DNA of 64,000 nt, taken from Sulfurospirillum cavolei. Its GTDB lineage: Bacteria > Campylobacterota > Campylobacteria > Campylobacterales > Sulfurospirillaceae. Each line of letters begins with the position of its first letter. The first letter of the stretch is position 1. Where the stretch lies: the NCBI RefSeq assembly GCF_001548055.1, contig NZ_AP014724.1:620001-684000 (forward strand), read 5' to 3'. Shown here piece by piece: positions 43,925-45,784 of this stretch. The notes under the pieces were generated by a model, which saw only the letters and a program-made list of their open reading frames with translations, did not search any database and had not been told where the DNA came from. The position numbers were made by a program, and so were the translations under genes.

Positions 43925-44317
43925 TCAGGCAACGTTGATCAGCGATTTGACCCAAGCCTCCATCGTTGCGTGCATTTGTTCTTTGGGAGCTTCAAGAAAA
44001 TCGAGAATAAAACGCTCTTTCGTTTCGCAAATGCCGATGGAACGCGGGCGAACCGCTAGAATTTTAGAGTTTGGAATCGCTTGTCCAAAGCAAAAAACAA
44101 GATTTCTAGCATCAAGAATTTCCGGAGCGATTTCTCCCTCAAGGCTTTTGGTATGCTCGTAATTATTAAAAACGGCAATAAATTTTGCAATCGGATGGGC
44201 TTCGACTTTCGCTTTTAACGCCTCCAAAATAGCCTCGATCGTATCGTATTGACACTCGCTCTTTTCGATACTCAAACTAAAGATCGGGTATTTATCCATG
44301 TAAACGGTTTTGGTCAT
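43925..44317 (-). CDS. Conserved protein of unknown function, 130 residues
   Basis: A soluble protein (no signal or membrane helix) beginning MTKTVYMDKYPIFSLSIEKS. I do not recognise its family. It contains a two-cysteine region (NLVFCFGQAI and SIGICETKE). It precedes the DUF4492 gene by about 18 nt on the same strand, so it may be the first gene of the cytochrome bd operon. A link with redox or metal chemistry is only a guess. Confidence 0.6.
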   Translation of the reverse strand: MTKTVYMDKYPIFSLSIEKSECQYDTIEAILEALKAKVEAHPIAKFIAVFNNYEHTKSLEGEIAPEILDARNLVFCFGQAIPNSKILAVRPRSIGICETKERFILDFLEAPKEQMHATMEAWVKSLINVA

Positions 44318-44550: not shown

Positions 44551-44919
44551 ATAAAAAGCACCGAAGGTGCGTGGGCACTCTGCCGAAGAGAACCCAGTGT
44601 TAACGTAGCTTTTAGAGCTTAGCTCTAAAGGCGTGTTAAAGATAAAAAAGCACCGAAGGTGCGTGGGCACTCTGCCGAAGAGAACCCAGTGTTAACGTAG
44701 CTTTTAGAGCTTAGCTCTAAAGGCGTGTTAAAGATAAAAAAGCACCGAAGGTGCGTGGGCACTCCGTCTTGGAGAACCCAGCGTTAGCGTAGCTTTTAGA
44801 GCTTAGCTCTAAAGGCGTGTTAAAGATAAAAAAGCACCGAAGGTGCGTGGGCACTCCGTCTTGGAGAACTCAGCGTTAGCGTAGCTTTTGGAGCTTTGCT
44901 TCAAACGCGTGTCAAAAGA
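44551..44919 (+). repeat. Four tandem 92-bp repeats with conserved RNA-like hairpins
   Basis: GCACCGAAGGTGC recurs at 44558, 44650, 44742 and 44834, exactly 92 bp apart. Each unit has three hairpins on the + strand: GCACC-gaa-GGTGC; TGGG-CA-CTCT...AGAG-AA-CCCA; and TTTAGAGC-tta-GCTCTAAA, extendable by GCT/GGC. Copies 3 and 4 change CTCT/AGAG to CTCC/GGAG together. Copy 4 changes CCCA to CTCA and TTTAGAGC/GCTCTAAA to TTTGGAGC/GCTTCAAA, each keeping pairs or G-U wobbles valid only for + strand RNA. Located between the cytochrome bd operon and mscS; function unknown. Confidence 0.8.
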
Positions 44920-44941
44920 TAATAAACTGAAGGAGAACGAA

Positions 44942-45784
44942 GTGGAACACGAACTTAAAAGCCTTCAAAAAGTCTACGGCGTCGTGATCGAATTTTTGAC
45001 GCAGTACAGTTTCCAGCTTATCGGTGCGCTGATCGTCGTCGTGATCGGATGGTTCGGCGCAAAATACGTTTACGCGCTTTTGATGCGTTTGTTTGCGAAA
45101 TATCGCTTGGATATGACCTTGGCGCGCTTTTTAGCGAACGTCGCCAAAGTATTGGTTTTAACGGCGATGATCGTGGTTGCCTTAGGTAAAGTCGGTATCT
45201 CGATCGCACCTTTCGTTGCGGCAATCGGCGCAGCTTCGCTCACGGCCGGATTGGCGTTGCAAGGAAGCGTTTCTAATTATGCCGCGGGTGTTTTGCTGAT
45301 CGTTTCGCGCCCGTTTAAAGTCGGCGATACGCTCTTGGTTGCAGGCGTTTACGGCGTGGTGGAGGAGATTAAGCTCTCGTATACGATGCTTCGTAACGAA
45401 GACGAAGAGCTCATCAGCGTTCCTAATAAAAAGATGATCGGCGATATTTTGGTTAATTCGTTTGAGGAACGAGTTGTTGAGAGTCGATTGTTTCTGACAT
45501 ACGAAAGCGATCCGCTTAAAGCGATTGCATTGATCCAAACGACGCTCAATGCTTGTCCCGACGTTTCACAAACGCATCCACCCTTGGTCGGCATCGCGCA
45601 GTTGGCGCAAGGTGCGATTGAAATCGGGCTTCGCTATTGGGTTCCGACGAAGCGTTATTTTAAAACGCAATACGACGTTAATTTGGCGATTTATCAAGCG
45701 TTGCGACACGAAGGCATTGCCGTTTCTTACCCGAAACACGAAATTCAAATCGTAGGAGGTACGTTTGATCCCCAAAAAGTATGA
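44942..45784 (+). CDS. mscS: MscS-family small-conductance mechanosensitive channel
   Basis: I chose GTG 44942 with GAAGGAG 6 nt upstream; the open frame reaches back into the last 92-bp repeat. The 280-residue protein has three helices and the pore motif APFVAAIGAASLTAGLALQGSVSNYAAGVLLIVSRPFKVGDTL, which is nearly the E. coli MscS pore. It is the canonical small MscS size. The stop overlaps the next gene. Confidence 0.92.
   Translation: MEHELKSLQKVYGVVIEFLTQYSFQLIGALIVVVIGWFGAKYVYALLMRLFAKYRLDMTLARFLANVAKVLVLTAMIVVALGKVGISIAPFVAAIGAASLTAGLALQGSVSNYAAGVLLIVSRPFKVGDTLLVAGVYGVVEEIKLSYTMLRNEDEELISVPNKKMIGDILVNSFEERVVESRLFLTYESDPLKAIALIQTTLNACPDVSQTHPPLVGIAQLAQGAIEIGLRYWVPTKRYFKTQYDVNLAIYQALRHEGIAVSYPKHEIQIVGGTFDPQKV

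Follow-up and report, generated by a model that had tools for sequence, protein, structure and literature searches.

The tandem array that precedes an mscS-like gene of Sulfurospirillum cavolei is, in the reading that we favour and consider fairly probable, the tandemly amplified inner module of a mobile repeat that is non-autonomous and BOX-like; the element would need its single-strand fold for its own spread or upkeep. Judged against Rfam 15 and the open-access papers that were searched, the 80-nt folded core of this module looks like an undescribed element. The window referred to below is the whole stretch of DNA that was analysed, 64,000 nucleotides in length; coordinates without a prefix are positions in it, and core position 1 corresponds to window position 44555.

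Tandem array upstream of mscS

Tandem Repeats Finder located the array at 44553-44926 (period 92, 4.1 copies, 94% matches, score 585), and the four 92-bp direct repeats occupy 44555-44922, with unit starts at 44555, 44647, 44739 and 44831. Units 1 and 2 are exactly the same; unit 3 differs from them at 7 bases and unit 4 at 18. The array and its surroundings contain the following features:

44555-44646, + strand: repeat unit 1, consisting of the 80-nt folded core and a linker (Tandem Repeats Finder; 101.3 bits)
44647-44738, + strand: repeat unit 2, same sequence as unit 1 (unit comparison)
44739-44830, + strand: repeat unit 3 (96.7 bits)
44831-44922, + strand: repeat unit 4, last in the array and most divergent (96.1 bits)
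44635-44646, + strand: linker between array units, about GTTAAAGATAAA
44929-44935, + strand: GAAGGAG, likely ribosome-binding site of mscS directly 3' of the array, as deduced from the sequence
44942-45784, + strand: mscS-like mechanosensitive channel gene (PF00924, 2.2e-15) with a GTG start at 44942; neighbour, outside the element
43925-44317, - strand: DUF6858 gene (PF21651, 1.4e-55); divergent neighbour, outside the element

An earlier note on this DNA had described four 92-bp tandem repeats whose differences mostly keep pairs on the + strand, and both the repeat search and the comparison of units confirmed this. All the base changes that it listed are present: in core numbering, 27-33 goes from U-A to C-G, 20-40 from G-C to G-U, 60-72 from A-U to G-C and 61-71 from G-C to G-U. 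It had missed a further covarying site at 44-49 (U-A to C-G), a G-C to G-U change in the pseudoknot pair 21-29, the broken pair 56-76 (U-C) of unit 4 and, most importantly, the dispersal of the unit over the genome. Folded as RNA, a single array unit gives -36.1 kcal/mol against a mean of -21.5 for shuffled sequences (z -4.85), a value equalled in 0 of 200 shuffles.

On the minus strand each copy of hairpin H1 (described below) reads as a GC-rich stem of 5 bp with a run of T after it and is therefore terminator-like (44558-44570, 44650-44662, 44742-44754 and 44834-44846). An A-rich stretch preceding H1 is frequent in other genera too.

Fold of the core

The core consists, from 5' to 3', of hairpin H1, a small H-type pseudoknot formed around hairpin H2, the mini-hairpin GYGUURRC and hairpin H3. 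In unit 1 these parts are positioned as follows:

44558-44570, + strand: hairpin H1 (core 4-8 with 12-16), 5 of 5 pairs doubly changed across genera
44574-44576, + strand: 5' strand of the pseudoknot (core 20-22), partner at 44582-44584
44582-44584, + strand: 3' strand of the pseudoknot (core 28-30)
44578-44590, + strand: hairpin H2 (core 24-27 with 33-36), whose loop is the pseudoknot partner; covariation
44597-44604, + strand: conserved mini-hairpin GYGUURRC (core 43-44 with 49-50), in which 44-49 alternates between UA and CG
44608-44632, + strand: hairpin H3 (core 54-64 with 68-78), with GTAG at its 5' foot; covariation

The GTAG at the foot of H3 is nearly invariant among copies. The helices were recovered by mutual information without prior input from 156 distinct copies, mostly of Sulfurospirillum, and the covariation score of alignment A1 was 0.456 compared with 0.232 in shuffled data. 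A second alignment, A2, was composed of 57 copies mostly from genera other than Sulfurospirillum. Here the score rose to 0.751 against 0.232 for shuffles, and it never exceeded 0.152 when the partners were slid by 1-3 columns. Double changes were present in 23 of the 25 pairs, so that the sequence has been rewritten and the pairs kept. With the pseudoknot included, 96.5% of the cells of A2 are paired as opposed to 69.4% in shuffles; A2 was aligned to a covariance model that is biased towards nested helices and from which the pseudoknot is absent. The pseudoknot pair 20-30 is GC in 28 rows of A2, AU in 23, GU in 2 and other in 2.

G-U mismatches outnumber A-C mismatches by 155 to 26 (p 1.5e-23), and by 62 to 7 within A2. 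Such a bias is unexplained by a double-stranded palindrome and is expected of RNA or single-stranded DNA; the fold thus belongs to one strand. The view that a structured single strand in the + orientation is maintained by compensatory changes is therefore upheld by covariation, by the ratio of GU to AC and by its extension across genera. The earlier note had also named homologues with broken pairs in other genomes as the finding that would speak against it; at orthologous sites the structure held, with 110 of 132 stem changes keeping the pair.

A divergent second form of the core was observed in genome G008, at L203:218-306 and L207:129-209 (both - strand; 27.9 and 34.6 bits with the core model). 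Its first hairpin is TGCCTC..GAGGCA, and it has the part comprising GTAG and H3 in common with the main form.

Distribution

When one array unit was used as a query against the S. cavolei genome, about three dozen more matches were obtained. With covariance model R1 the genome holds 43 core copies, and the unit is thus not confined to the surroundings of mscS; the counts in eight further complete genomes of Sulfurospirillum range from 15 to 62. Within the class Campylobacteria 76 of the 397 genomes sampled carry the core; the carriers, which are relatives of Campylobacter associated with sulfur, belong to 12 of 68 genera. In those other genera that were examined closely the number of copies was 6-28. 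Genomes of named species were scanned with a degenerate sequence pattern; among the matches listed were Sulfurospirillum, Sulfurovum and others labelled Campylobacterales or Epsilonproteobacteria, and a few carried broader labels only. A plasmid of Sulfurovum mangrovi gave one weak core match. Viral contigs yielded no match to an exact, moderately degenerate core pattern, and a phage origin of the core was rejected on these grounds.

Other repeats were also present. A dispersed repeat, TTTGTTCCCCTTCTTTTTTGCTTRTCCAAAAAAGAAGCCGAACCGGGAAGAAAAAAGGAYAA.., is abundant in genus g53 (for example L248:776-849), and the palindrome TTTACATGTAAA recurs in intergenic DNA of Sulfurospirillum beside many copies and empty sites (L088, L120, L160 and others).

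No Rfam 15 family was detected on the window array at gathering scores, and at 12 divergent core loci the only family found was the 23S rRNA around one of the cores. A permissive Rfam search returned unrelated sub-threshold matches only. As far as Rfam 15 goes, the earlier statement that no described class could be recognised thus stands. The open-access papers searched for intergenic repeats of Sulfurospirillum or Campylobacterota contained nothing relevant apart from a GTAG/CGTC survey that names Sulfurovum. An attC-like recombination site was considered on account of the motif GTTRRC; the idea was abandoned, since the core does not form a single imperfect palindrome.

Sites, neighbours and the mscS gene

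An mscS gene is present in 22 of 24 Sulfurospirillum genomes. Among these 22 the array precedes it in S. cavolei (4 units) and in G002 (2 units), and a partial remnant was found in G008. The proposal of a regulatory array tied to mscS was accordingly not supported: the array stands at 2 of 22 mscS genes, with one remnant in addition, and copies elsewhere adjoin unrelated genes in both orientations with folds that are similarly intact. A partner gene that travels with the core was also sought and rejected, since no protein family recurs beside the core in 92 independent site groups, as judged by eye. The only recurrent neighbours in these groups were a few resembling common sensor kinases and chemoreceptors.

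Orthologous cores are often 0.88-0.94 alike at sites where the adjoining non-coding DNA can hardly be aligned. They are slightly more alike than the genus background and are seldom the best matches of each other; owing to the latter, gene conversion may have taken part. The likeness can be due to host-level selection or to gene conversion, instead of selfish spread. Concerted evolution as the sole cause was set aside, the orthologues being a little above the genus background and rarely best matches.

End hairpins and the 914-bp IS

Core sites present in one genome are empty in a relative. The earlier note had suggested comparing copy number between strains; at the same sites it varies, with 4 units against 2, 3 against 2 and 2 against 1. 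In Sulfurospirillum a hairpin stands on either side of many single copies: TAGACTTCTTGCAAAAC..TTTTGCAAGAAG precedes the core and AGAGTTCTTGC..GCAAGAACTCTA follows it. The ends TAGACTTCTTGCAAAA are common to this Sulfurospirillum element and to a 914-bp insertion sequence (IS), and TA is found at both outer edges of the IS as well as at the edges of many elements. No clean target-site duplication of the element was recovered from the empty sites, which align poorly. In one orthologous core (L267 and L268, in G320 and G303, near L248:1501-1580 of G374) extra inserts were observed in the middle of the core; the site is empty in G216.

The IS itself is located as follows:

L191:319-1232 and L192-L196 (G023, G008): 914-bp IS5-type IS

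Its ORFs match HTH_Tnp_4 and DDE_Tnp_4, and IS5-family models were matched below the curated cut-off. Identical copies occupy many places, 5 in G008 and 6 in G023. Two of the ORFs overlap, which suggests a frameshift. Of 24 Sulfurospirillum genomes, 5 were found to contain the IS; that of S. cavolei does not, and G020 has a distant relative.

The terminal inverted repeats that many Sulfurospirillum single copies share with this autonomous IS make the Sulfurospirillum element MITE-like. The array in the window is without such ends. The interior showed no derivation from the parent IS and no dependence on it: the core model found no match in the IS (L191 included), and the core is present in genera in which the IS was not found. 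Since the IS was found only within Sulfurospirillum and the core occurs elsewhere without these ends, the core is independent of the IS, and it is probably older. The IS cannot explain the spread of the core outside Sulfurospirillum, where the end modules are missing.

Core pair in a 23S rRNA gene

In genome G269 two cores lie head to head within a 23S rRNA gene:

L236:1501-1658 (G269:C1, within 464002-467080): head-to-head core pair

The insertion, of about 165 nt, falls at position 1218/1219 of the LSU model consensus, which is a helix tip, and it folds as one long hairpin. Judging from this case, the element inserts at sites that tolerate a hairpin, and it is transcribed there.

Alternative explanations

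It is rather unlikely that the arrays are cis-acting leader RNAs, which would bind a protein or ligand in the 5' leader (as an operator, a sponge or in a riboswitch-like manner) with the dispersed copies forming a regulon. In the S. cavolei genome 7 of 7 arrays of at least two units do have a gene immediately downstream and in the same orientation; the cases are few, and their position gives a hint that this subset may function in leaders. The retention of the + strand fold alone and the conservation of cores at orthologous sites agree with such RNAs as well. However, position and orientation before related genes were not consistent, as a cis-regulatory leader or riboswitch would require. Single copies are without orientation preference relative to their neighbours (co/co 39, anti/anti 30, anti/co 29, co/anti 26), and orientation is mixed in other genera too. 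The paired fraction is 0.97-0.99 across all four arrangements, and copies antisense to both neighbours are still folded (0.971, compared with 0.989 for those in line with both). Downstream genes had no common theme by eye, mscS being the only name tested with a profile, and the link to mscS is not conserved. Small RNA genes that form a family, every member having a promoter of its own, would account for a compact fold confined to a single strand at many loci, but the DNA 5' of the core lacks conservation, no common promoter was seen by eye, and within the window the + strand has no terminator-like site after H3; we regard this reading as very improbable.

The fold could instead be a single-stranded DNA substrate, resembling a large REP, that is copied by a Y1 (HUH) transposase of the RAYT or IS200-like kind, although we hold this to be quite unlikely. 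It would fit with a strand-specific fold, with a nearly invariant GTAG at the foot of H3 and with the absence of terminal repeats outside Sulfurospirillum, and Y1_Tnp is enriched among core carriers (51 of 76 genomes, against 73 of 321 others, in a hand count that ignores the kinship of genomes). Yet 25 of the 76 carriers have no Y1_Tnp, including G216 and G374 with 20-21 copies. REP sequences are palindromes of 20-40 bp with an unpaired GTAG, whereas the last G of the GTAG of the core is paired within H3 in 56 of 56 rows. A RAYT gene would moreover be framed by the repeat that it moves. The only Y1 gene of S. cavolei is framed by an inverted repeat of its own and has no core beside it:

L054:1108-1866, - strand (S. 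cavolei genome, near 2417474): RAYT-like Y1 transposase gene, flanked by inverted repeat GGGGTCAGGGCTAAACTTTT

This gene fits the TIRYT class with GGGGWSAS ends, as that class is described in PMC3733652. RAYT as the mover of the core was rejected because its inverted repeat is unrelated, the core is not beside it and the enzyme is not universal among carriers. In a plain MITE, terminal repeats and neutral copying would have left a structure in which the core fold has no role. The ends in common with an IS5-type IS, the TA at both outer edges, the lack of coding capacity and the presence/absence sites are all as expected of a MITE. Cores without ends in other genera, with helices that have been rewritten, are not; neutral copies should also gain AC as often as GU and lose pairs with age, and neither is seen. 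A plain MITE is accordingly highly improbable.

Proposed mechanism

In the BOX-like reading that we prefer, the transposase of the 914-bp IS, or a more ancient relative of this enzyme, would have dispersed the composite element, and the core would have been multiplied by slippage or unequal recombination to give an end module, n cores and an end module. The window array would represent an amplified core from which the end modules have gone. Selection on the fold would come from a protein that recognises the single strand, either RNA or single-stranded DNA, for the copying or upkeep of the element. The similarly intact folds in either orientation to neighbouring genes point to selection for the element's own copying or upkeep. 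In the leader of mscS the array may be co-transcribed with the gene as a by-product. Several findings weigh against this reading: the narrow occurrence of the IS, which S. cavolei lacks, the cores of other genera that have no end modules, the missing target-site duplication, the likeness of orthologous cores, and the orientation of all S. cavolei arrays towards a downstream gene. A bolder version, which we think unlikely, takes the core to be a self-spreading pseudoknotted RNA or single-stranded DNA that is copied through recognition of its fold, does not depend on any one IS family and can enter rRNA genes as a head-to-head pair; it would in effect be a bacterial counterpart of SINEs.

As a rule, the intergenic repeats of bacteria are simple palindromes or what is left of an IS. 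That a pseudoknotted fold of several helices is conserved over many genera and lies outside Rfam implies that something in the cells recognises it, and its partner, if found, would represent a new mobility route or a new RNA-binding system. Campylobacterota includes environmental bacteria and pathogens of importance, and a covariance model of the core would annotate dozens of now blank loci per genome.

Comparison with known systems

Intervening sequences occur in the rRNA of Campylobacterota, and the head-to-head cores of G269 resemble those of 23S rRNA in being inserted at a helix tip. They differ in that this is one case only and that, taken overall, the element is mostly found between genes.

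REP and GTAG palindromes, as described in PMC3733652 and PMC8266576, are likewise dispersed and intergenic, with a strand-specific hairpin, GTAG at its foot and dimers in various orientations. In contrast, the core has 80 nt with several helices and a pseudoknot, its GTAG is partly paired, and many carriers have no Y1 transposase. GTAG repeats are reported from Sulfurovum NBC37-1 in PMC3733652, and these might overlap with hairpin H3. MRSC-65-2 (PMC11109978), one of the mobile/repeat candidates that came out of screens for structured motifs in bacteria, is also a multi-copy covarying motif with inconsistent orientation to genes and has been proposed to be a selfish element, but it forms a single long stem with UYCCGG repeats, whereas the fold described here is multi-helix and pseudoknotted and so far found only in Campylobacterota.

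The element shares with IS5-family MITEs its shortness, the lack of coding sequence, the terminal inverted repeats in common with an IS and the TA at its edges. BrickBuilt of Porphyromonas is a MITE in which leader and tail enclose a tandem array (PMC4596501), a layout that the present element resembles. Unlike MITEs and BrickBuilt, the window array has no terminal repeats, the range of the core exceeds that of the ends, and the covariation is of the RNA type.

BOX elements of Streptococcus are likewise multi-copy intergenic repeats that are folded when transcribed and have ends like those of a resident IS (PMC3049150). In BOX an inner module in variable tandem number lies between two end modules, a layout that the present element resembles, and in both the copy number varies by strain. 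Compared by layout with the BOX order boxA-boxB(n)-boxC, single copies consist of an end hairpin, the core and an end hairpin, n is variable, and arrays are without clear ends. The present element differs from BOX in belonging to another phylum and in having as its inner module a pseudoknotted fold that occurs in 12 genera and, outside Sulfurospirillum, stands on its own without end modules.
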